Assembly (NCBI GenBank): GCA_012033205.1
Contig: JAAUSO010000021.1
Location: 1 to 60,253, forward strand
Length of the DNA stretch: 60,253 nucleotides
Source of the DNA: Richelia sp. SL_2_1
Lineage (GTDB): Bacteria > Cyanobacteriota > Cyanobacteriia > Cyanobacteriales > Nostocaceae
Direction of reading: 5' to 3'
This document shows, piece after piece, positions 24,122 through 58,816 of the stretch. The translations under genes were made by a program, and so were the position numbers. The notes under the pieces are model-generated. The model searched no databases and was not told the DNA's origin. It saw only the letters and a list, made by a program, of their open reading frames with translations. Each line of letters begins with the position of its first letter. Within the stretch, counting starts at the first letter, position 1.

Positions 24122-24769
24122 TTAATGTGGTGGAGTACTACTTATGTTTATTCTTGATTTAAAAGAGTATTCAATTCTGAGACGTTTGGGAAGTCGATTA
24201 TTTTTTTCAGTGAAAGCATCGCGGCGAATTTCTTGTAATCCCAATTTTGGAAAATAGTCGATTTCTTCTAAGGATAAGGGATAAGGTGGACCGCTGGGTT
24301 CTTCTGGAGTATCGCGGATAGCTGTGATAACTAATAATGTTCCGTTATGAGCGACTAATTGAGCAATAGCTGTCATTACTTGCTGACGTACTGTTAAAGG
24401 TAAAGATTGAATAGTTCTCGATTCAAAGACGAAATCAAAATTTTGCTGCCATTCTTGATTTAGATCGAATAAATCGGCGATGACGTAGTTAACAGAAGAA
24501 TTAGGAAATCGAGAAATACACCAATTGATTGCTGTAGGGGAAATATCAAAAGCGGTAACATCAAATCCCTGTTTGGCTAAAGCTTCGGCATCGTCTCCTA
24601 ATCCACATCCAACTACTAAGGCTTTTAAACCGTTTAAATTTTTCTCAAGTTGTGGATTTTGATTTAACCAATCTTTGAGATAGGCATTTACAGTCATATT
24701 TGCCCAAGGAACTTGATTAGAATCACCTTGAGCTTTAGCGTATAGATTTTCAAACCAGTTTTGAGTCAT
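24122..24769 (-). CDS. Class I SAM methyltransferase (thiopurine-methyltransferase-like)
   Basis: 215 residues from ATG 24769 (MTQNWFENLYAKAQG). Motif I is ALVVGCGLGDDAEALAKQGF followed by VTAFDIS, with WCISRFPNSSVNYVIADLFDL and FDFVFESRTIQSLP downstream; SGPPYPLSLEEIDYF is also seen in TPMT-like proteins. The substrate is unknown. Its start overlaps the stop of the upstream helicase-like gene as ATGA (24766-24769), so translation of the two is coupled. Confidence 0.85.
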   Translation of the reverse strand: MTQNWFENLYAKAQGDSNQVPWANMTVNAYLKDWLNQNPQLEKNLNGLKALVVGCGLGDDAEALAKQGFDVTAFDISPTAINWCISRFPNSSVNYVIADLFDLNQEWQQNFDFVFESRTIQSLPLTVRQQVMTAIAQLVAHNGTLLVITAIRDTPEEPSGPPYPLSLEEIDYFPKLGLQEIRRDAFTEKNNRLPKRLRIEYSFKSRINISSTPPH

Positions 24770-26965
24770 AATTTTGTATTTATTAATTGTGATTCGATTC
24801 CCACACAAGCATTCACTAAGGGTAACAATGAACCAAGTTGCTCTTGTCCGTTTACTGCTAACTCGCTGTGACATAGATAAATTTTATCGGATACGCGAGC
24901 AAGTAAATCCGCTATAATCCTTTGCAATCGTTGGTCTTCGGCTGATTTTTCATCTTCAGCAGTCCAAGGTTGAGCAAATCTATCTTGTAAAAAGAACATG
25001 GAACCAAATAAGGTTGCTGCTCCTCCTTTTGTCCATAATGGTGAACCTGCATCTAACCAAAAATGCCAGGGATGAGAATGACGTAAGGAACGATATTGAA
25101 ATATTGTTGCTAATGTAACGGCATTCTCTAGGCTTCCGATGCGACGTATGGGATAAGGACTTGCAGTAATGGTTCCCTGTCGTAATAACTCGATAAATTC
25201 CGCGATGGTTGTGGTTTTACTTTTATCTGGTTTTTCTACTGCTTCTGTTACCTGCTCATCTTGTAAAGATTTCCTAGTAGAAGAATATTGATTTAATCTA
25301 GTATCAATTTCCCAGTAATGTTGAGCGGTTTCTAGTAATTGCCGCAAAATCGCCAGTTGTTCGTAATTGGAATAACCAACGTCAGATATAAAGTATTCTA
25401 TGGCGCTATATAAAAAGGAAACGGGAGTCGGAATTAAACGCTTTTCGTAATTCGAGCGCTGTTGCTCTAACCAGTTTAATATTTTTCTATAAGCGGTTGT
25501 CGCAGCATAACCTAATCTATCCCACCTTTCAAAGGAATCGATATTTAGTAAATTGGGGTTGTCTGGATGGGGTTCAAAACAGTAGTCTGCGATTAATCCA
25601 GCTCTTACCGGATCAATAAATTGATGGTTATTCGGTTTGCGACTGAGTACTACTAACATGGACGCGATGGCATCTCTATCAACCAAACGTCCTAAACCCG
25701 GATAAACTAAGGTTAATAAAGTTAGTAAAGCCCGAATCAAAGGTGAACTAATTAAAGGACGTTGATCTTGCAGCGAATTCACCGCAATTCCGGCTTTGCT
25801 AAACTTTTCGATCAAAGAATAACGTGCAATTGCGTCTAAACCGGGAGCAATGATGGCGATTTCTTTTGGTTGTACTATGCCGGATTGGACTGTTTTGATG
25901 ATTGTTTCTGCGGTTTCTTGTAATAATGAAGCGCGGGAAGTTGTTTGAATTGACTGTACCGATAAAGGTAAACTCAAAAGCGTCATTGGTTCTGTGATCA
26001 ATTGCGTCATTGAATTCAAGAGCAAATCGGATAAGGATAACATCGGTGGTTGAGTTAAAATTTCTCTGTGACAATGTTCTGCTAACCCAGACATATAATT
26101 TGGATCTGCTCCTAATCCCAAACGCACTATACCATCGGGATTATAACTAAAGGCTCCCACACCATCAGCAATAATCAACTCGAATAAACGACGCATCAAA
26201 GCGGGATAATCCTGTACGTCATCCGCTAAAACTGCTTGATAGCGTTTTTTGAGTCGGGAAAGATAATTATGATCCGCTAATAAATTTTGAGCGTAAAGTT
26301 CCGTAATAATTCCGTAAGTTAAAAAGCCCTTATCCAAACACCACTTACGCCAATCTAATAATAAAGAACCAATCATATCTGGTTCTAACTTAGTAAAATT
26401 ATCTTGTGTTGATATTACTGTTGTTAAAATGTGCGGAATATTTTCAATGGTGTTCCACTTAAGGCTGCTAATTGCATTAAGTCAAGAATACGGCGTACTA
26501 AACGAGACTCATTCATCCCAATACTACGCAAAATTTCTTCATTGAGTCGAGAATGCCATAACTTAGTTGCTAGTTCCTGTTCAGTTTCTGGACGTAATCT
26601 TACCGGAAATTGGGCTTTTAATTTTAAAGATTCGATCAAAAGAGGCCAAAACAAAATCACTTCATCTTGAAAAAACCTAAAGGTGTTTTCGCTATCACCG
26701 GGTACTTTCCCCAAGTAGCAGTCACAATTTTATCTGCTAGCTCTCGACGATTATCTCCATTTGCAGCAAAGACTAAAACTCCCAGTTCGTTATGCAGGTA
26801 AAGGCTTTTTGGTATGCTAGAACTATTTTTTTTGATTGAGTTACTAGTATAAAATAGTTGCTTGTTCTGATCGTGATGGTTTACCCAAATACAAAATTGC
26901 TCTACCAAACGTTCAGTCTTACCACTACGACTAGAACCTTCAATCCAAAGAGAATGATTTAACAC
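24766..26965 (-). pseudogene. Recombination helicase/AddB-like protein broken by two frameshifts
   Basis: Three consecutive frames make one protein of about 733 residues if two bases are restored. Part 1 (26965-26657) starts MLNHSLWIEGSSRSGKTERLVEQF with a Walker A GSSRSGKT. It breaks at the run A6 at 26670-26675, where one more base joins TPLGFF to QDEVILFWPLL. Part 2 runs to about 26450. Part 3 (IENIPHIL ... NTKL) contains IAIIAPGLDAIARYSLIEKF and a long helical body. The family is a cyanobacterial UvrD/AddB-like superfamily I ATPase often labelled recombinase. It may be functional in reality if the breaks are sequencing undercalls. Confidence 0.7.
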
Positions 26966-35540: not shown

Positions 35541-35972
35541 TTTATAAACCTCGTGTAATAGTATTGTGTGTTTTGTTGTATCTTGTGTGTTGTTGCCCAG
35601 AAGATCAACTTTCTTTAAAATTTCAACAGGTATTTATTAACAACCTTTGATGATTTTTTAAAGTTTTTATTTTTCTCTTGTGGGATATACGGGGATACAG
35701 AATTTAGTTTGCTTATTCCGGATTTACCCGAATTTTTTTGGGAAATAAATGTTCGTGCTTTTAATCAGCCACCATTTCTGGCGAATTAGCATTACTGATC
35801 ATTCATGCTTTGATTATCCACCGCGAACAACTAACATTTAAAGTTGAACCTCTATACTTAATTACTTTACCCAAAGAACTTGGGGGTGTCAAGTCTTTGG
35901 TTAAAAAAGTTGGGCGCAATATTTTTTTGATGTTAGGATGTACCGCTATAGACGTGCTTAAGTTGTGTAACT
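35541..35972. other. Divergent intergenic region
   Basis: About 430 bp between the tandem paralogues (minus) and the XRE regulator (plus). A frame across it on the minus strand has no coding character. It should hold both promoters; no operator is recognised. Confidence 0.5.
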
Positions 35973-36293
35973 GTGAAACGTAAACCAAAACCAAGGATAG
36001 CTTTTCTTCGTGAAAAGGCGGGTTTAACCCAGCTTGAGTTGTCTCGTCTCGTAGGCGTGACAGAAAGCACCATCCAAAACTGGGAAAGTGGTAGAACAGG
36101 GATAGACCACATTCAGAGAATCGTAAAATTTTGTAAAGCTCTCGATTGTCAAGTAGAAGATTTGATCGAATCAGAAAAAGACTTCCCAGAAGAAGCATCA
36201 ACAAAACCAGCTTCTTTGCAAGAAATCCATAATTTACTAGGTACCGAGGAGGAAGAAGTAGAAAAAGCAGAGGAAGCCGGAAAGACAAAGTAG
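35973..36293 (+). CDS. XRE-family helix-turn-helix regulator
   Basis: 106 residues from GTG 35973. The HTH_3 domain spans residues about 8-62 (IAFLREKAGLTQLELSRLVGV, then TESTIQNWESGRTGID). The C-terminal 40 residues are Glu/Lys-rich and likely disordered. No adjacent toxin or phage genes. The divergent position relative to the secreted-protein cluster makes that cluster a candidate target, which is inference only. Confidence 0.85.
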   Translation: MKRKPKPRIAFLREKAGLTQLELSRLVGVTESTIQNWESGRTGIDHIQRIVKFCKALDCQVEDLIESEKDFPEEASTKPASLQEIHNLLGTEEEEVEKAEEAGKTK

Positions 36294-49722: not shown

Positions 49723-51312
49723 TTAAGCTATTTTTAACAGTCTACGTAAAACTAACTGGTCTTCGATCTTAACCTTAAGACGACCATTTTCTATATCCCT
49801 AATCCAACTTTGACTTTTACCCATCAGCTTTGCTAGTTCCCTTTGAGAAATACTTAAATTTTTTCTGGCTAAACGAATCTGTTCTCCAAGTAAACTACCT
49901 GCTGTTTTAATTTTTCTACTTTTTTTAGTGGTTTGCTGTTGTTTTTTCCTGGCTGTGAGATTTGGTTGATCCCATTGCGGTGACATTTCAAAGCATAAAA
50001 TTCGCGCATTCATCAACATTTTCCATTTTCCACGGGGACTCACATCAGTTAACCTTCTTCCTTGATCTCCATCGTTAATCCAAAATTCTATGGCTTCGTC
50101 TGGATCTTCGGGAATGTCTGCTAATTTAGCCCACAAGGGTTGAATTGCTGCTGGATAACTCACCGGATCGAAAATTGGTTTCATTCCATAATGTGATAGT
50201 GTTTCTAAATCACTCTCAAATGTTCGTAGCAACCGTTTGCGTTCTTCCCTTTGTCTACAAGCAATCGCCACTTTGCGATCGCCATAGGCAACGCGCATTA
50301 ATGTGGGTATTGTAATCCGTTGTTGTTTACCCATTTTTGTTTTGAACATCAACCACATCATCAACCGTGCTGCACCTTCATGCTGCTGCCAGATACTCAT
50401 CACTGTAGTCAGCAAAGATTTAGGCAAGTTACCATATTGATAAAAGGCTGTACGCTCTTTACAGGCTTGTTTATTTAAAAAATATTTCGCCCAAACACCA
50501 GCTTTGATTCTAAATGTCAAACCAATCAGATATTTACACCCCAGTTCGTCTTGTTGAAAATGATGCTGTATTCCTATCAAATCCCACAAGCAAGTTTTTT
50601 CAAATGAAATTGGCTCTAAACGTCCTTGTTGTGGTAAATCAATGGAAATAATTAAGGAACAAACTTGCTGGACTAATCTTTTCATCAAAGCCAATTTTGT
50701 CGTTTTGTTCAAATCTTTGCGTTTTTCTAATCCCAAATATTTCTCTATTTGCTTATCATCTACAACAAACTCTTCTTCCCAAGGTTTTTCTGAGAAAGTC
50801 GCGTAAGCTGCAAAAATCAGATGTACGCAAGCAGATCGAATATCAAGTTCTTCAACTGCTTCTAAGTCTGTTGCAAGTTCGTATGCTTCAGAAGAAGAGT
50901 TGATGTGAAAAGCAATTTTTCCTCGTCCCTGATTTATCTGTTTGCCGTAGCGCACTTTATCAGTTTCATCGATTTCCCAAGGTAAAGATGTCCTTTGAGA
51001 CAGCACGTTACAAGCTTCCCAAATGGGAATACCAGATGCAAATGGATTACTCTTACCATTGAAAAATAAATCTGAACTAGTCAATTCTCGATCATCAATT
51101 TTACACCTTCCTTTTTTTACCCGTAATGGAATTGGGGACTTACTCGGACAAGCTGATACACATTGGGGTTCGGAATAATAACCCTCACAGTTATTACATA
51201 AATGAGGATCGATCCAATATTCACCATTGTCGATTTTGATAGCACCTGTTGGACACTGAAAACGACATTTATCGCATCCAGCGCAACTGTTATTAGAAAT
51301 TGTATAAGGCAT
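49723..51312 (-). CDS. patB: PatB/CnfR nitrogen-fixation transcription regulator
   Basis: 529 residues from ATG 51312 (MPYTISNNSCAGCDKC). The N-terminus is a 2[4Fe-4S]-type ferredoxin domain with Cys10, 13, 16, 20 and Cys39, 42, 51, 55. A long central helical region follows and the C-terminus is an XRE-like helix-turn-helix (EQIRLARKNLSISQREL, MGKSQSWIRDIENG). This is the layout of PatB/CnfR, an oxygen-responsive activator of nitrogenase genes that is required in heterocysts. In Anabaena PCC 7120 patB also lies next to a cox gene cluster (recalled). Here it is divergent from fdxB across 1.1 kb. Confidence 0.93.
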   Translation of the reverse strand: MPYTISNNSCAGCDKCRFQCPTGAIKIDNGEYWIDPHLCNNCEGYYSEPQCVSACPSKSPIPLRVKKGRCKIDDRELTSSDLFFNGKSNPFASGIPIWEACNVLSQRTSLPWEIDETDKVRYGKQINQGRGKIAFHINSSSEAYELATDLEAVEELDIRSACVHLIFAAYATFSEKPWEEEFVVDDKQIEKYLGLEKRKDLNKTTKLALMKRLVQQVCSLIISIDLPQQGRLEPISFEKTCLWDLIGIQHHFQQDELGCKYLIGLTFRIKAGVWAKYFLNKQACKERTAFYQYGNLPKSLLTTVMSIWQQHEGAARLMMWLMFKTKMGKQQRITIPTLMRVAYGDRKVAIACRQREERKRLLRTFESDLETLSHYGMKPIFDPVSYPAAIQPLWAKLADIPEDPDEAIEFWINDGDQGRRLTDVSPRGKWKMLMNARILCFEMSPQWDQPNLTARKKQQQTTKKSRKIKTAGSLLGEQIRLARKNLSISQRELAKLMGKSQSWIRDIENGRLKVKIEDQLVLRRLLKIA

Positions 51313-52433
51313 AAGGCTATGTGCCACTTAACTTCTTGCGACGTTTGGCTCAAGTCTTATCTAGATGTGTTTTTTAGATATGCTCAATACCACACTTGAC
51401 GATAAAAATAAAGGCTTTTTATCGCACTGACTCACATCTATATATGTACTTCCAATTAAGAATAGGTCTCTTAATTAAAAGTATTAACCAGAGCCTATAT
51501 TTCAAACTTCCTTATTTATAGTTTTCATAAAGTTATTAAAAAGTTTTGTTCGCAATGAGCTATGAAGGTTTTTTTCTATTATTAATAAAAGATTCATTCA
51601 TACCTTTTATATTCAAATTTTCGTGGTTTTTAAACTGTTCTCTAAGAACAAACCAATTACTAATAATATCAAGGTTTTTTCAAAGCTATTTTCAAAAACA
51701 TTTTTGTCTATTCACTATCTTAACATACTCTTCACATAAATTTCATATTTTTTGTTTTTTTTTATTTTTTAGATAATAACTATTGACAAATATTTGTTGA
51801 TTAACAGTATTTTCTACAATTATTTGTGTAGCAAATTAAAATCCTAGTTTAGATAGTTAATCCCAAAAAATCATCATCAAACATTCAAGTTTAATTTGAA
51901 CTTGATTATATATACTTAATTGTAGTTATTATAACTAGTAAAAATAGCGATAAATATAATTTGACCACTTTTGTTGTAGTGATAAAAGTTCAAAAATATA
52001 TTTTGTGTATATATATACGATTTTTTTTAATTTATTTTGCTGGTTAATTGATAAGTAATCTCATTAATTAAACGATTTGTCAGATATTAAATTGCGTATA
52101 GTAAGTTTTTTAGGCTTCTGATTATTAATAGTAAATAAGATAGTTGCTTTAAAAAATCAATTTATATTTTGTAGCTATATAAAAATCGATAAATCCCTAA
52201 AAAGATTATCTAGTATTGCTTTTAGCCTCTTGATAGGCTCAGAGAACTTAGTAATTAGTTGCAATAAAAAAATAGCATAACATCAAAATTGATACTTAAT
52301 TTTTTTATATTAAAAGTAATATCTATGATTTAAATCATTTCCTTATCGCAATATGAAAATAGATAAATTTGGTTTAAAATTAAGAAGAAAGCTACAAGCA
52401 ATGTAAGCATATCTATTATTAACAGGTTCAATT
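51313..52433. other. 1.1-kb AT-rich divergent promoter region
   Basis: No gene can be supported; the frames present are Phe/Ile/Leu-rich chance frames. It should hold the promoters of patB and of fdxB. A stretch GTG-N8-TAC at 52005-52018 is one base off the NtcA consensus GTA-N8-TAC, too weak to call. Its length suggests a regulatory leader or small RNA. Confidence 0.55.
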
Positions 52434-52727
52434 ATGGCAGTACTAACAGGTTTGACAGCAGGTGGTAAAACATGGACACCCAAATTTGTGCAAGAAATTG
52501 ATAAAGACAAATGTATCGGCTGTGGTAGATGTTTTAAAGTCTGCGGACACAACGTATTGTCTTTAATGGCAATGAACGAAGAAGGTGAATTTGTCGAAGA
52601 CGAAGACGACGATGAAATTGAAAAGAAAGTAATGGTTGTTGCTCAAGCAGATAACTGTATTGGTTGCGAATCTTGTTCTAAAATTTGTCCAAAAAACTGC
52701 TATACCCACGTTGCAATAGACAATTAG
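52434..52727 (+). CDS. fdxB: Ferredoxin III, nif-specific (FdxB)
   Basis: 97 residues with two [4Fe-4S] clusters: Cys27, 30, 33, 37 ([11 protein letters not shown]) and Cys75, 78, 81, 85 ([11 protein letters not shown]). The N-terminus [19 protein letters not shown] is diagnostic for the nif-associated ferredoxin III group (TIGR02936), and an acidic loop separates the clusters. It is a candidate electron donor in nitrogen fixation. It lies between patB and coxB, as expected for a heterocyst gene block. Confidence 0.93.
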
Positions 52728-53155: not shown

Positions 53156-54142
53156 ATGCAACAAATTCCTGTTTCGTTATTAACTTTAGTTGCTGGAGCT
53201 TTTGTCACAATTGTAGGTATCTGGGTTAGTCAAACTCATAATCTATTACCGATACAAGCATCCGAACAAGCACCTTTAGTTGATGGATTCTTTAATGTCA
53301 TGTTCGCGATCGCCATTGCTTTGTTTTTGGTGGTTGAAGGAACTATCTTGTTTTTTGCAATTAATTTTCGTCAGCGAAAAGGCGATAATACAGACGGACC
53401 ACCCATTGAAGGTAACGTACCTTTAGAGATATTTTGGACTGCAATTCCGACGATAATAGTTTTTGCTTTGGGTATCTATAGCGTCGATGTCTACAAGCAA
53501 ATGGGAGGATTCCCGTCAGCGAATCCTGCAATAATTGAGACTCAGAATAATTCTGATTCTGGAAGTGCAATTGCAGCAACGATTAGTGAAGCTCCTACCA
53601 TATCCTCAGATACAGCACAGTCTGTCAATCAAAAGATTGGGATTAAAGGTTCACCCGCACAGCAGAATCAAGCAGCAGAAGTAACTGTAGATGTTACGGG
53701 AATGCAATTTGCATGGATTTTTAATTATCCCCAAGACAACATCACATCCGGTGAGTTACATATTCCAGTTGGTGCTGACGTACAGTTAAATATTGCAGCA
53801 ACAGACGTAATTCATTCATTTTGGGTACCGCAATTCCGTTTGAAGCAAGATGCAATCCCCGGCATGGCTACCGAACTGCGATTTGTCGCCACTAGACTAG
53901 GAACTTACCCTATAGTTTGTACAGAATTGTGCGGCGGTTATCATGGTTCGATGAGAAGCCAAGTAATCGTTGAGACTCCCGAAGAATATCAAAGTTGGTT
54001 GCAAGAAAACCGGATTGCACAACAAAACAATGACGAAATTGTTGCAATAAACTCCGTAGAATTACTACCATTCGAATACCTTGCTGCTTATAGTTCGGAT
54101 ATGGGTATTAATTCAGGAACTCTCGCTCAAATTCAGAAATAA
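53156..54142 (+). CDS. coxB: Cytochrome c oxidase subunit II
   Basis: 328 residues. Two N-terminal transmembrane helices (LLTLVAGAFVTIVGIWV; FNVMFAIAIALFLVVEGTILFF) hold a periplasmic cupredoxin domain. The Cu-A ligands are all present: His220 (VIHSFWVP), Cys255, Glu257, Cys259 (CTELC), His263 and Met266 (GGYHGSM). It takes electrons from cytochrome c6 or plastocyanin. First gene of the coxBAC cluster; the Gln/Ser-rich insert at about 130-170 is unusual in length. Confidence 0.95.
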   Translation: MQQIPVSLLTLVAGAFVTIVGIWVSQTHNLLPIQASEQAPLVDGFFNVMFAIAIALFLVVEGTILFFAINFRQRKGDNTDGPPIEGNVPLEIFWTAIPTIIVFALGIYSVDVYKQMGGFPSANPAIIETQNNSDSGSAIAATISEAPTISSDTAQSVNQKIGIKGSPAQQNQAAEVTVDVTGMQFAWIFNYPQDNITSGELHIPVGADVQLNIAATDVIHSFWVPQFRLKQDAIPGMATELRFVATRLGTYPIVCTELCGGYHGSMRSQVIVETPEEYQSWLQENRIAQQNNDEIVAINSVELLPFEYLAAYSSDMGINSGTLAQIQK

Positions 54143-54240: not shown

Positions 54241-55214
54241 ATGACGCAATTAGAACATCCACAAAATACAACTCAAGTGGCTGCTCATGCTCATCCCCAA
54301 GCATGGAAGTGGTATCACTATTTCACCTTTAATGTAGACCACAAGGTAATTGGTATCCAATACCTAGTAACATCGTTTATTTTTTATCTGATTGGTGGAT
54401 TGATGGCTGTAGCTATGCGTGCCGAATTGGCTACACCGGATGCAGATTTACTCGACCCCAATTTGTATAATGCTTTTCTGACCAATCATGGGACGATCAT
54501 GATTTTTTTATGGATTGTCCCCAGTGCAATTGGTGGCTTTGGTAACTATTTGATACCGCTGATGGTTGGTGCTAGAGATATGGCTTTCCCGAAGCTGAAT
54601 GCTGTAGCCTTTTGGTTAAATCCACCGGCTGGTGCTTTGGTTTTAGGTAGTTTCTTCTTTGGTGGTTCTCAATCAGGTTGGACAGCCTATCCACCCTTAA
54701 GTTTAGTAACGGCGAATACCGCTCAAAGTATGTGGATTCTCGCCATTGTATTGGTGGGAAGTTCTTCAATTTTGGGTTCCTTGAACTTCGTTGTTACCAT
54801 TGGAAAATGAAAGTTCCTTCGATGAAGTGGGATGAATTACCTTTATTTTGCTGGGCAATTTTAGCTACTTCATTATTGGCATTAGTTTCTACACCAGTAT
54901 TAGCTGCTGGTTTAGTCTTGTTGTTATTTGATATCAACTTTGGTACTTCTTTCTTTAAACCAGATGCAGGTGGTAACGTAGTTATTTATCAGCATTTATT
55001 TTGGTTTTACTCTCATCCAGCAGTTTACTTGATGATTCTGCCTATTTTTGGCATTCTTTCCGAAGTAATCCCAGTTCATGCACGTAAACCAATATTTGGA
55101 TATAAAGCAATTGCTTATTCTAGTTTAGCGATTTGCGTTGTAGGTTTATTCGTCTGGGTTCATCATATGTTTCTGATTGACTTAAATTCCTTAATAAGCA
55201 TAAATTATTATTGA
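54241..55214 (+). CDS. coxA: coxA 5' segment (cytochrome c oxidase subunit I, interrupted and frameshifted)
   Basis: Haem-copper oxidase catalytic subunit, N-terminal two thirds. Low-spin haem a ligand His83 (NHGTIMIFLW). The frame breaks after VVTI: GGA AAA TGA is read where homologues have WKMKVPSMKW, so one T is missing near 54801. The second frame continues VPSMKWDELPLFCWA with Cu-B His259 and the cross-linked Tyr263 (SHPAVY), then His308-His309 in VHHMF (55158-55172). Past that point the reading frame leaves coxA (LIDLNSLISINYY, stop 55214), because the element begins there. The 3' part is at 57055-57798. Restored and excised, the protein would be 553 residues. Confidence 0.93.
55158..55172 (+). 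repeat. Left direct repeat of the coxA element
   Basis: GTTCATCATATGTTT, encoding VHHMF in the coxA frame. Identical to the right copy at 57055-57069. Probable recombination core. Confidence 0.95.
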
Positions 55215-55216
55215 GT

Positions 55217-55243
55217 AAACATTGTAAGCAATAAACAATGTTT
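55217..55243 (+). promoter_or_regulatory. Inverted repeat upstream of the recombinase
   Basis: AAACATTGT (55217-55225) and ACAATGTTT (55235-55243) around a 9-bp spacer, 44 bp before the recombinase ATG. It could be an operator or an accessory recombinase site. Within the element, near the left repeat. Confidence 0.5.
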
Positions 55244-55286
55244 GCTTGAAACATATATTTAGGGAAGAATTAGGGAATCAAAGCAA

Positions 55287-56681
55287 ATGAAAGCAGACAT
55301 CTACCAAGAAGCATTTAAAGATTTCCAGTCATCAGCAACCACAGACGGTAGCTACTTAGGTATAAACAAAGCAGCCAAAGAACAAGAAGCACATATGAGA
55401 ATGAAAGTACAAGAAAAACTAAAAGAAGCTAATTTGCGACTTAAGGAAATGAAAGCAAAGGTTTCCTTAACAATGAAAGGTAATGCAATACAGTTACGCG
55501 CTACACTACCACTTAAACCAGGTGATACGAATATAAAAAGTAGACAAACAAAGCAATATCAAATATCCCTAAATATTCCAGCAAACCTAGACGGATTAAA
55601 AACAGCAGAAGAAGAAGCTTATGAATTAAGTAGATTAATATCAAGAAAGTGTTTTGAATGGAATGATAAATATTTAGGATGCAAAGCTTCTCAAAATATT
55701 GATATAAATTTTGGAGAAATATATGATAAGTTTGAGGATATATTTTTTCAAACAAGAAAAAGAGATATTAAAAGTGAACATACTTTTACTGAATATAAAA
55801 AAGTCTTTAAAAGAGAATTTAAATCTGATTTAATTGTGAATAAAAAAAATATAGAAATTTCATTGAGCAAAATTGATTCTAGCAGTAAAAGATTTCAAGG
55901 CATAAAAGTAGCTAGTATTATATGTAAATATTTAGAAATAGATATTGACTTTCAAAAGTTAAAACTTCCTATTATACCTCAAAAAAGAGACATTCCTCAA
56001 GATAAAGTAATTATAGATGGTTTTGATAAATTTGAAAAATATTACGAATTAAACAAACACAAAAAAAATCCTTATTGGAATAGTTATTTAATATATAGAT
56101 TGGCTTACGGTTTAATAGCTAATTACGGATTGCGCCCTAGAGAAGTATTCAACCAACCTGATATTGATTGGTTTATAAGTGAAGATAACAAAGATAATAC
56201 TTGGAAAGTTCATAATGACAATAAAACTGGAGCCAGAGAAGTATTACCCTTTATGCCAGAATGGATTGAACTATTCGATTTAAAAAATAAAACGGCACTG
56301 GAAATGCTTAAACAAAGAACTGATAAAATAAAATCTTTTTCACAATTGACTATTATAGTAGATAAAAATTCACAATGGTTTAAAAGAATTGGGCTAGAAT
56401 TTAAACCTTATGATTTACGCCATGCTTGTGCTATCAGAGCGCATTTACAAGGGATACCTCTTAAAGCAGCAGCAGATAATTTAGGGCATTCGATAGAAAT
56501 GCACACTAAAGTTTATCAAAGATGGTTTTCCTTAGAAAATCGTAAGAAAGCTATGAATACAGCTTTAAATGAAAAACAAGAAATGAAAATGCTTCGAGAA
56601 CAAAATATTTATTTACAGAAAAAAGTAGAATCTCTATCTTTAGAACTAGAAAAATATAAGTTAAATAAAATTCTTATATAA
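55287..56681 (+). CDS. XisA/XisC-like tyrosine site-specific recombinase
   Basis: 464 residues. The N-terminal part (TDGSYLGINKAAKEQEAHMR; LQLRATLPLKPGDT-like block; ISLNIPANLDGLKTAEEEAYEL; CFEWNDKYLG) closely follows XisA of the nifD element as I recall it. Catalytic residues: Arg283 (YGLRPRE), Tyr375 and Arg378 (KPYDLRHA), His401 (LGHS) and the nucleophile Tyr410 (KVYQRW). Tyr375 stands in the place of the usual His, a hallmark of the XisA/XisC group. A coiled coil (about 440-464) ends the protein. It would excise the element that carries it. A GGGAAGAATTAGGG stretch precedes the ATG. Confidence 0.93.
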   Translation: MKADIYQEAFKDFQSSATTDGSYLGINKAAKEQEAHMRMKVQEKLKEANLRLKEMKAKVSLTMKGNAIQLRATLPLKPGDTNIKSRQTKQYQISLNIPANLDGLKTAEEEAYELSRLISRKCFEWNDKYLGCKASQNIDINFGEIYDKFEDIFFQTRKRDIKSEHTFTEYKKVFKREFKSDLIVNKKNIEISLSKIDSSSKRFQGIKVASIICKYLEIDIDFQKLKLPIIPQKRDIPQDKVIIDGFDKFEKYYELNKHKKNPYWNSYLIYRLAYGLIANYGLRPREVFNQPDIDWFISEDNKDNTWKVHNDNKTGAREVLPFMPEWIELFDLKNKTALEMLKQRTDKIKSFSQLTIIVDKNSQWFKRIGLEFKPYDLRHACAIRAHLQGIPLKAAADNLGHSIEMHTKVYQRWFSLENRKKAMNTALNEKQEMKMLREQNIYLQKKVESLSLELEKYKLNKILI

Positions 56682-56837
56682 CTAACATCAAACTATTCCC
56701 TTCCCCTTCTAAAGTTTCCTCTCTCTGATCTTTTCTTTGCGCTCTCAGCGCGCCACTTGCTACAAGTCGAGGAACCATAGCCGAGCAGTGGCTTGTCTCT
56801 GCGGTTTTTAAATCCGTAATCTTCTAAAATATACTAT

Positions 56838-56875
56838 AAAAGGCTTGAAAATAAGAATATTTTTCAGGCTTTTTG
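56838..56875 (+). terminator. Rho-independent-type terminator after the recombinase
   Basis: AAAAGGCTTGAAAAT pairs, with two G-U wobbles, with ATTTTTCAGGCTTTT, followed by a T-rich tract. It lies about 160 bp past the recombinase stop and would end its transcript before the right repeat. Confidence 0.65.
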
Positions 56876-57054
56876 TTTATATTAATACAGAAGAAAAATC
56901 ATATCTATTTTTAAGGAATAAATAGTGAATCAAATTATTAATTAGTAACGTTATTTAACTGAGAACAGACAACATTGAAATATAAAATTAAGGAATATAT
57001 AGAGAATAGTTTTAAAAATAGATGTTGAACCTTTGCTAATTAAAGATTTTAACT

Positions 57055-57069
57055 GTTCATCATATGTTT
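57055..57069 (+). repeat. Right direct repeat of the coxA element
   Basis: GTTCATCATATGTTT, identical to 55158-55172. The coxA 3' segment continues ACCAGCGGTACTCCC (TSGTP) from here. Confidence 0.95.
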
Positions 57070-57798
57070 ACCAGCGGTACTCCCGGTTGGATGCGGATGT
57101 TTTTCACCATCTCTACCCTAATTGTGGCAGTTCCCACAGGAATTAAAATATTTAGTTGGGTAGCAACTCTTTGGCAAGGGAAAATCCGCTATACTAGCGC
57201 AATGCTGTTTGCCATTGGCTTATTAATGATGTTCGTTTTAGGTGGTATTGGCGGCGTGACTTTAGGAACCGCACCATTCGACGGACACGTTCACGATACT
57301 TATTACGTGGTTGCACACTTCCACTACGTCCTATTTGGCGGTTCTGTATTTGGTATTTATGCTGCGATTTACCATTGGTTCCCTAAAATGACGGGAAGGA
57401 TGATGAATGAAACTTTGGGTAAAATTCACTTTGTCCTCACCTTCATCGGCACCAACTTAACCTTCCTACCCATGCACGAATTGGGTTTACAAGGAATGCC
57501 CCGTCGAGTTGCCATGTACGATCCTCAATTTGAGGCTATCAATCAACTTTGTACCTATGGTGCTTATCTATTAGCAGTATCGGTAATTCCTTTCACTCTG
57601 AATATTCTTTGGAGTTGGAATGCTGGTGCAAAAGCCGGTGATAATCCTTGGAATGCTTTGACATTAGAATGGACAACCTCTTCCCCACCCGCTATTGAAA
57701 ATTGGGAAGAATTACCCATTGTCACCCATGGCCCTTATGATTACGGTACCGTTACTGAAGGTGAACCTTTGAAGCCTTCTACAGAAGTTACTGCTTAA
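57055..57798 (+). CDS. coxA: coxA 3' segment (subunit I, C-terminal third)
   Basis: Continues subunit I after the element: VHHMFTSGTPGWMRMFFTISTL, then FDGHVHDTYYVVAHFHYVLFGG with haem a3 ligand His394 and haem a ligand His396 in restored numbering, and the cyanobacterial C-terminus ENWEELPIVTHGPYDYG. By itself it has no start signal. The segment is intact, with no stop or further frameshift. It becomes part of a full enzyme only after loss of the element. Confidence 0.94.
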   Translation, partial: VHHMFTSGTPGWMRMFFTISTLIVAVPTGIKIFSWVATLWQGKIRYTSAMLFAIGLLMMFVLGGIGGVTLGTAPFDGHVHDTYYVVAHFHYVLFGGSVFGIYAAIYHWFPKMTGRMMNETLGKIHFVLTFIGTNLTFLPMHELGLQGMPRRVAMYDPQFEAINQLCTYGAYLLAVSVIPFTLNILWSWNAGAKAGDNPWNALTLEWTTSSPPAIENWEELPIVTHGPYDYGTVTEGEPLKPSTEVTA

Positions 57799-58226
57799 AG
57801 AGTTTAAAGGTTGAATTAATTCATTGTAGTGCGGTCTTCGTAGCGTGTCCGTAAGGACATACATCTTGCTCGCTAGATACATACAAAGAGTCAGATGTAT
57901 GTACTGACGGATACGCTATTCGTCTATTTCATTAAATTTAAATGTTTGTAGTTGGGCTTCAGCCCTTGATTTGAGGGATAAATCCCTCACTACGAACCCA
58001 TCAGAACTAATGCAATTGACTACTAGTAGTCCTTTTCATTAAATTTGATGGCTTAATTAATAGAACCTTACTAGTAGTCGGATTTTACCAGAAATCTTGT
58101 AGAGACGTTACATATAACGTCTCTACATTACGTCGGTAGACAAACAAAACCAATCAAAACTAATGCAATTGACTACTAGGAAGACGGTACAATCTAAAAT
58201 CCAAAATCTAAAATCCAAAATCTAAA
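57799..58226. other. Repeat-rich coxA-coxC gap
   Basis: Contains a hairpin GTAGAGACGTTA/TAACGTCTCTAC (58099-58126), a TGAGGGATAAATCCCTCA palindrome (about 57972-57989), a 22-bp direct repeat (58005-58026 and 58158-58179, key core TGCAATTGACTACTAG) and CTAAAAT/CCAAAAT heptamers (58192-58226) ending at the coxC ATG. The direct repeat flanks the hairpin as if an insertion had occurred. No gene. Confidence 0.75.
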
Positions 58227-58816
58227 ATGGCGATCGCAACAGAAAAACTCCAGTACACCATGAAGAACACGCAGATTTACGAGTTTTGGGATTAATAACT
58301 TTCCTAATTTCGGAATCCTTAATGTTTGGTGGATTTTTTGCTACTTACTTGTTCTATCGTGGAACGACTCAAACTTGGCCTCCCCAAGGAACCGAAGTAG
58401 AGTTATTGTTACCGACTATTAACACCATCATTCTAGTATCCAGCAGTTTCGTGATTCATTTCGGAGATTCTGCAATTAAAAAGAATGATGTCCAAGGAAT
58501 GCGAAAATGGTACACAATTACTGCATTCATGGGAATAATTTTCTTACTTGGTCAGGTTTATGAGTATCTGACTTTAGGATATGGATTGAGTACCAATTTA
58601 TTCTCCAACTGTTTTTACCTGATGACAGGATTCCACGGCTTACACGTGTTCATCGGAGTCCTATTAATTTTAGGTGTATTATGGCGTTCTCGTCGTCCCG
58701 GACATTATAACGAACACAAACACACCGGAATCGAAATGGCAGAAATCTACTGGCACTTTGTAGATATCATTTGGATTATACTCTTCACGCTGCTTTATAT
58801 TCTTACCAAATTTTAA
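58227..58816 (+). CDS. coxC: Cytochrome c oxidase subunit III, one frameshift near the start
   Basis: The body (GLITFLISESLMFGGFFATYLFY ... FHGLHVFIGVLLILG ... AEIYWHFVDIIWIILFTLLY) is clear subunit III with five transmembrane helices. The ATG at 58227 (MAIATE) reads out of frame to a stop, while the correct frame (PVHHEEHADLRVLG) lacks a start. One more base in the A5 run at 58243-58247 makes a 196-residue protein beginning MAIATE and continuing into PVHHEEH. Without that base only the internal TTG at 58286 could start. Likely a sequencing undercall. Confidence 0.88.

Follow-up and report, generated by a model that had tools for sequence, protein, structure and literature searches.

A recombinase unit within coxA2

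The window analyzed here is the whole 60,253-nt contig JAAUSO010000021.1 of Richelia sp. SL_2_1 (assembly GCA_012033205.1), which is contig C303 of the 7.55-Mb, 359-contig genome that we label G000. It carries a cox operon whose subunit I gene, coxA2, is split by a unit of 1,897 bp, measured between two direct repeats. The parts of the split gene and of the unit are as follows:

54241-55172, + strand: 5′ piece of coxA2, residues 1 to 311 (COX1 matches; alignment with four relatives)
55158-55172, + strand: left direct repeat, 15 bp, GTTCATCATATGTTT, coding for VHHMF in the coxA frame
55217-55243, + strand: inverted repeat AAACATTGTAAGCAATAAACAATGTTT between the left repeat and xis (in all five elements described below, 0 to 2 mismatches to the pattern)
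55287-56681, + strand: xis, tyrosine recombinase of 464 aa (phrog_1, 5e-13; invariant residues; fold matches)
57055-57069, + strand: right direct repeat, 15 bp, GTTCATCATATGTTT, coding for VHHMF in the coxA frame
57055-57798, + strand: 3′ piece of coxA2 (COX1, 217.6 bits; 97% identity to Plectonema cf. radiosum LEGE 06105 over 244 residues)

Both the identical repeats at 55158 and 57055 and the solitary recombinase gene between them had been pointed out in a preliminary description of this DNA, and both were borne out. GTTCATCATATGTTT is the sole 15-mer to recur at least 200 bp apart within 54241-57800, and any such repeat appeared in 4 of 300 order-1 Markov sequences modeled on this stretch. 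No third exact copy exists in the 7.55-Mb genome, where a copy with one mismatch sits in another coxA gene, on contig C53. The coding strand between the repeats holds one long open reading frame (ORF), xis, and no other of gene size; xis starts 129 bp past the start of the left repeat, ends 374 bp ahead of the right repeat and lies on the same strand as coxA. End repeats inside a host gene, together with a recombinase gene at the element's start and in host-gene orientation, give the unit the anatomy of a cyanobacterial interruption element; that the recombinase gene stands at the start when oriented like the host gene is a rule given by Hilton et al. 2016 (PMC4874684).

Deletion of the 1,897 bp would yield ...WVHHMFTSGTPGW..., which is in frame at the junction. 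Unexcised, the coxA frame reads VHHMF-LIDLNSLISINYY-stop (continuation VHHMFLIDLNSLISINYY) and ends at 55214, 13 codons past the left repeat, so that everything downstream is lost. The intact gene had been described as inactive on account of the Cu-B histidines within the repeat, an explanation that fails, as the left copy still codes for VHH: the unexcised gene would be inactive because its frame meets the element's stop, not because histidines are missing.

The element in related genomes and selection on the split gene

The same element, with identical 15/15-bp repeats at the same coxA codon, is present in five of the eight genomes of the genus. A recombinase scan of genome contigs gave nine loci, four of them at 83 to 95% identity, and all four have the identical 15-bp repeats at this codon; likewise, a search across the genus found GTTCATCATATGTTT exactly twice in each carrier genome. 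The unit measures 1,852 bp in Rivularia T60_A2020_040 (T60), 1,897 bp in Plectonema LEGE 06105 (G292), 1,994 bp in Richelia UBA3308 (G294) and 1,838 bp in Rivularia MS3 (G296). Joining the flanks produces an open coxA2 frame of 555 aa in T60 and LEGE 06105, and at the other two loci (L019 and L020) the joined gene remains broken at other interruption sites. Empty sites occur as well: coxA2 is an uninterrupted 556-aa frame in genome G293, and the VHHMF site is uninterrupted in G291. In G297, which is 84% complete, no coxA2 was found.

Both pieces of the gene evolve under strong constraint. With the first six codons dropped, two window codons masked and the L019 3′ piece limited to 85 codons, the ratio of nonsynonymous to synonymous divergence (dN/dS) was 0.011 to 0.034 for the 3′ piece (21 pairs, seven genomes) and 0.000 to 0.035 for the 5′ piece (21 pairs). 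Other piece limits, applied to three genomes, gave 0.020 to 0.067 for a 3′ piece that includes the C-terminal tail and 0.025 to 0.098 for a 5′ piece that includes the element-coded tail. In the first comparison, G293 and G291, whose VHHMF site is uninterrupted, resembled the carriers. Between the window and LEGE 06105, the 5′ piece has 37 synonymous and 0 nonsynonymous changes. Strong purifying selection acts on both pieces even though a stop codon in the element blocks the 3′ half, which makes it very likely that excision occurs in life; such selection is the strongest evidence for it that the sequences offer.

The protein encoded by xis matches integrase phrog_1 in PHROGs (5e-13), and its top sequence match in the PDB is a Xer-like tyrosine recombinase (E 0.0039); NCBIfam gave only a 13-bit match, far under the cut-off. 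All 51 rows of an alignment, one of which duplicates the window protein, share R283, K313, Y375, R378, H401 and Y410. The catalytic R, K, R and H and the nucleophilic tyrosine are all present, as R283, K313, R378, H401 and Y410, which we assign to the motif positions of tyrosine recombinases. Y375 takes the place of a histidine found in most families, presumably a trait of XisA and XisC, for which the literature search gave no paper. An AlphaFold2 model (mean predicted local distance difference test score 69, predicted template modeling score 0.48) has a three-stranded sheet plus helix near the N terminus (residues 59 to 129), and each of the top 18 Foldseek hits was a tyrosine recombinase or integrase (lambda Int and Tn1549 Int among them), with E <0.001 for rank 1 only. 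The xis frame is open in all five carriers and evolves with a dN/dS of 0.10 to 0.30 (10 pairs).

Outside the genus, the best relative of the recombinase was 49% identical among 291 genomes drawn from the order, a draw that did not include the other four carriers; a Mastigocoleus protein found among named contigs is 54% identical and falls in a nifD-type clade. In a 51-row tree, the five carriers form a clade of their own with 100/100 support and a long stem, and this clade is confined to one genus among the sampled genomes. No relative was matched in 50,697 phage records, and when IMG/VR was scanned for two peptide patterns, 205 stretches matched one of them and 0 were confirmed; three plasmid records hold relatives at ~27 to 28% identity. 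We considered and rejected an origin as a phage or prophage remnant, against which speak this lack of phage relatives and the lack of any other gene-sized coding-strand ORF in the unit.

Synonymous divergence (dS) hints at a horizontal component. Among the window, T60 and LEGE 06105, dS of xis is 0.07 to 0.09, compared with 0.16 to 0.53 for the coxA pieces, coxB, coxC, patB, a tetratricopeptide repeat gene and a cupin gene (the T60 cupin, truncated to 16 codons, was left out); the ferredoxin gene (97 codons) is as low as xis, at 0.06 to 0.07. Since xis dS lies below that of most flanking genes, the sequences suggest that the element was transferred among these three strains after their split, codon constraint being the alternative. 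Once G294 and G296 are compared, xis dS is near that of coxA.

Proposed excision in heterocysts and competing explanations

Upstream of coxA lie coxB, a nif ferredoxin III gene and then a divergent gene for an iron-sulfur protein with a helix-turn-helix (HTH) domain; with coxC, the neighbors are:

49723-51327, − strand: PatB/CnfR-like regulator with a 4Fe-4S N terminus and a C-terminal HTH (Pfam HTH_31 and HTH_3 above cut-off; Fer4_9 and Fer4 below)
52434-52727, + strand: nif-specific ferredoxin III (TIGR02936, 144 bits, cut-off 80.55)
53156-54142, + strand: coxB2, subunit II, with motif CTELCGGYHGSM (TIGR02866 CoxB, 165.2 bits, cut-off 147.7)
58227-58816, + strand: coxC2 (COX3 match; one-base deletion by alignment with T60)

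We take CTELCGGYHGSM in coxB2 to be a Cu-A site, and the name PatB/CnfR-like follows the domain architecture plus synteny with all2512 (patB). Because of its nif ferredoxin and PatB/CnfR-like neighbors and the cytochrome c oxidase-type CoxB, the split gene is, judged by synteny, the heterocyst gene coxA2. For Anabaena 7120, the locus numbers all2512 (patB) and alr2514 to alr2516 (cox2BAC) are our basis for calling these genes adjacent (PMC7065334), and Cox2 of that strain is described as exclusive to heterocysts and indispensable when cells grow diazotrophically (PMC6616624). That the host may form heterocysts is read from gene content: the hetR frame is intact, and nifD is present, split in several pieces. 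Two further coxA genes of G000 are both uninterrupted.

We also followed up an apparent loss of hetR in LEGE 06105, where PF18460 and full HetR went unmatched; a true loss would have made this strain a carrier without heterocysts. In that assembly, the DNA on either side of hetR (present in G000 at L137, on C243) falls at the ends of two separate contigs, C254 and C207, with short repeats at the breaks. Since the flanks end on two contigs, a gap in the assembly explains the absence, and we rejected the loss.

The best reading of these data, and in our view a probable one, is that coxA2 harbors a minimal interruption element that is excised in heterocysts. The Xis recombinase would join the two 15-bp core repeats and release the element as a circle, probably assisted by three arm-like repeats. 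In vegetative cells, coxA2 would stay split and its translation stop within the element; in differentiating heterocysts, xis would be expressed, the element would leave precisely and the continuous coxA2 frame would be restored, Cox2 being needed in these cells to consume O2. Because heterocysts are terminal, the element would persist in the vegetative line. The preliminary description had likewise proposed a heterocyst oxidase gated by excision. That proposal is partly supported: synteny, hetR, nifD and the selection on both pieces, which implies rejoining, favor an excision element in a heterocyst oxidase gene; excision itself and its heterocyst timing are inferences, and the switch is not new in kind.

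If correct, this would place programmed excision in a gene for O2 protection rather than for nitrogenase, in the majority of the genus genomes. With a single gene and 1.9 kb, the element is near the smallest published size (1.3 kb; PMC4874684), and since it combines this near-minimal size with a defined core and candidate arms, its specificity and direction could be worked out in Escherichia coli.

Several observations weigh against heterocyst excision of a working gene. The 5′ piece of coxA2 is one base short at ~54799-54801 relative to all four relatives, and coxC2 is one base short at 58243-58247, near the gene start, relative to T60. Eight assemblies contained no excised junction or circle with the exact repeat, a result that we grade as uninformative. 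The PF00589 (Phage_integrase) score of xis, 23.1 bits, stays below the curated cut-off of 27.1, and the NtcA-type motif GTAN8TAC is absent from 55173-55300 upstream of xis, as it is upstream of coxB and fdx.

The missing base in coxA2, overlooked in the preliminary description, contradicts its claim of a perfect subunit I on either side of the unit. It also divides the earlier prediction for the removal of the 1,897 bp: the junction is in frame as proposed, and yet excision alone would not mend the window gene in this assembly, because the deletion disrupts the frame of the joined sequence. One may ask whether the cox2 operon has recently decayed in this strain alone while the element works in relatives, an explanation that we find unlikely but worth serious attention. 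Of the 28 ORFs of LEGE 06105 for which the window contains a relative, coxA alone failed a coverage test, and the coxC of the same operon is broken near its start; in the forward test with T60, a second ORF also matched only partly. In a census of 96 comparisons of relatives' ORFs against ~187 kb of G000, four rows were flagged. Two of these were coxA, one for each relative, and the others a ThiF-family (HesA/MoeB-like) gene and a CHASE2 gene, coxC having escaped the coverage test. coxA, coxC, the ThiF-family gene (otherwise 98 to 100% identical) and the CHASE2 gene each lack a single base; two of the four belong to the cox2 operon and the other two lie outside it, on contig C270. All four losses fit assembly error, and the 5′ piece has no nonsynonymous drift relative to LEGE 06105. 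Sequencing or assembly error is hence more likely than decay. In the reverse direction, 1 of 90 G000 ORFs was flagged, and so were two of the 30 window ORFs compared with LEGE 06105, at 35806-36198 (in two frames) and at 24769-26376 (partly). As a side observation, four single-base losses suggest that the G000 assembly is prone to deletions.

Other explanations concern when, or whether, the pieces are joined. Excision might take place at other times, in hormogonia or akinetes or as infrequent random events, heterocysts being just one of the settings in which the joined gene serves. Triggers other than heterocyst formation are discussed by Hilton et al. (PMC4874684), and low xis dS (below seven of eight flanking pieces) together with the precise empty site in G293 implies that germ-line gain or loss of the element is probably possible as well; the nif-type neighbors and the heterocyst-only expression reported for coxA2 of Anabaena 7120 (PMC6616624) make this a rather improbable account of when the element is excised. 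We give still less credit to a dead insertion, in which a selfish element became fixed in a dispensable coxA2 that is never rejoined: the two other coxA genes and the one-base deletions in coxA2 and coxC2 would agree with it, but a dN/dS of at most 0.035 for both pieces in 42 comparisons, the 37 to 0 ratio of changes in the 5′ piece and the open xis frame make it very improbable. Finally, the ATG inside the repeat could start the 3′ piece, so that separately made CoxA halves might assemble without excision. We find this scarcely credible, as the tail of the left half is coded by the element and differs from genome to genome, joining gives an unbroken frame in relatives, and three relatives have this gene interrupted elsewhere too.

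Arm-like repeats, known elements and stacked interruptions

Inside the unit, a motif scan located three candidate arm sites in direct orientation:

55259-55278, + strand: left arm-like repeat, TTAGGGAAGAATTAGGGAAT
56911-56930, + strand: first right arm-like repeat
56988-57007, + strand: second right arm-like repeat, 77 bp from the first

The 20-bp motif TTAAGGAANAWATAGNGAAT occurs with at most 3 mismatches as three direct copies in all five elements, one shortly before xis and two near the right end, compared with a mean of 0 to 0.05 matches in base shuffles. The motif was defined on the same elements that were scanned, so that its presence is not independent evidence, and a scan of spacing is the fairer test. 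Here, the best 20-bp repeat downstream of the recombinase gene was spaced 76 to 80 bp in 13 of 49 loci (a 50th was too short), compared with 0 to 3 in 20 Markov control sets. These 13 loci comprise four coxA elements, seven of the nifD-type clade (the Mastigocoleus one unchecked for nifD), a coxB2 element and one other, and represent about four related groups rather than independent cases; in the fifth coxA element (L097), the best repeat was tied between spacings of 22 and 76. The spacing is absent in the remaining 36 loci, including the site-3 recombinase in L097, where a 79-bp pair lies inside the gene.

The same one-plus-two layout, built on other motifs, recurs in a nifD element of G000 and in the coxB2 element of G296. 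By analogy, an arm-and-core attachment (att) site as in lambda would be the obvious reading for this group. The lambda and Tn1549 integrase systems resemble it in predicted fold and in having arm-like repeats away from the core; unlike those integrases, the coxA-element recombinase has no relative in the phage records, and its arms are candidates for such a role.

That nifD element splits nifD at about codon 69 (G000:C118, 3938-5698) and is a 1,754-bp single-gene unit with a short shared CGATTAA at its ends; its recombinase is the closest paralogue of xis in the genome, at 53%. Across six genomes of the genus, elements at this codon measure 1.72 to 1.76 kb by CGATTAA spacing and encode, next to the nifD break, recombinases 53 to 55% identical to that of the coxA element. 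The G000 copy has three arm-like repeats and all six copies have a pair spaced 78 to 80 bp, which the repeat search did not list in copies L058 and L062. Host gene and core repeat differ from those of the coxA element, and the arm motif is related without being the same. The nifD element may correspond to the nifD 227 variant of Hilton et al. Near the last nifD piece (G000:C161:8000-27999), a run of only 5.4 kb contains three recombinases of the xis type, which suggests neighboring or nested elements.

xisA and xisC encode tyrosine-type recombinases. The nifD (xisA), hupL (xisC) and fdxN (xisF) elements of Anabaena 7120 follow the same logic of heterocyst excision but are larger (11 to 55 kb; PMC3542288) and lie in other genes. 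Hilton et al. catalogued 101 interruption elements in 22 ortholog groups, which average 41.5 kb as against 1.84 to 1.99 kb for the coxA elements. Like the present unit, their elements have an internal recombinase gene, direct end repeats and a conserved heterocyst gene restored in frame, and 52 of 100 xis genes are of the tyrosine type. Three elements in three variants concern coxA, and coxA2 and coxA3 are named as element-containing heterocyst copies; one of these variants may correspond to the codon found here (PMC4874684). Our literature search, which left most subscription journals outside, returned no other survey of coxA elements, and cox and fdx terms were looked for in PMC8510180 and none were present. 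Switches of this kind are thus not new, and the coxA2 element is a further compact case; its recombinase lineage and site, the stacking described below and the paired-repeat att layout were not found described before in that search.

Relatives have additional interruptions in coxA2, which could not be seen from the sequence behind the preliminary description. At site 1, between NHGTIM and IFLW, the gene is interrupted in G291, G294 and G296, with a serine recombinase beside each break. The G296 enzyme scores 77.5 bits with Pfam Resolvase, and its counterparts show 91% (G291) and 60% (G294) identity to it. Site 1 yielded no clear direct repeat, shared strings being only 6 to 9 bp. A family search of 109 genomes, which also gave full-length copies, returned at least 8 genomes with a coxA2-like match lacking the N terminus; the match starts at 76 to 88 in seven and at 40 in G291, the one genome of these that was inspected. 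At site 3, between DSYYVV and AHFHY, G294 has a 16-bp repeat (AGTTATTATGTCGTCG) and a second tyrosine-type recombinase, whose 21.3 bits with PF00589 fall short of the cut-off, with the pieces on two contigs. Richelia UBA3308 (G294:C321 and C30) therefore has a coxA2 broken at three places, the first by ~19 kb. Rivularia MS3 carries two elements in coxA2 and one in coxB2 (G296:C15, 8272-12700), the latter of the tyrosine type with a 23-bp repeat (GCAGTTTGCTTGGATTTTTAGTT). All three coxA sites lie at or beside histidines that we take to be metal ligands, and the simplest reason is that these stretches are highly conserved, not that histidines are targeted.

It is quite possible, though we hold it only tentatively, that in this genus the heterocyst cox2 operon is a hot spot of independent excision elements, several of them single-gene, requiring up to three excisions per enzyme. 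A group of the tyrosine-type elements would share a lambda-like att layout (one left and two right arms 76 to 80 bp apart), each element having its own motif and core and thus a recombinase specific to it, and the elements would move between strains; the 36 of 49 loci without the spacing weaken this idea. Relatives with zero, one, two and three elements in coxA2 make it testable whether such elements serve regulation or are tolerated parasites.

Elsewhere in the window, no RNA family reached the gathering threshold. The 57841-58190 stretch between coxA and coxC contains several inverted repeats, such as that at 57841-57918 (84% over 31 nt), along with a 32-nt repeat that is present twice and ends in CAATTGACTACTAG.

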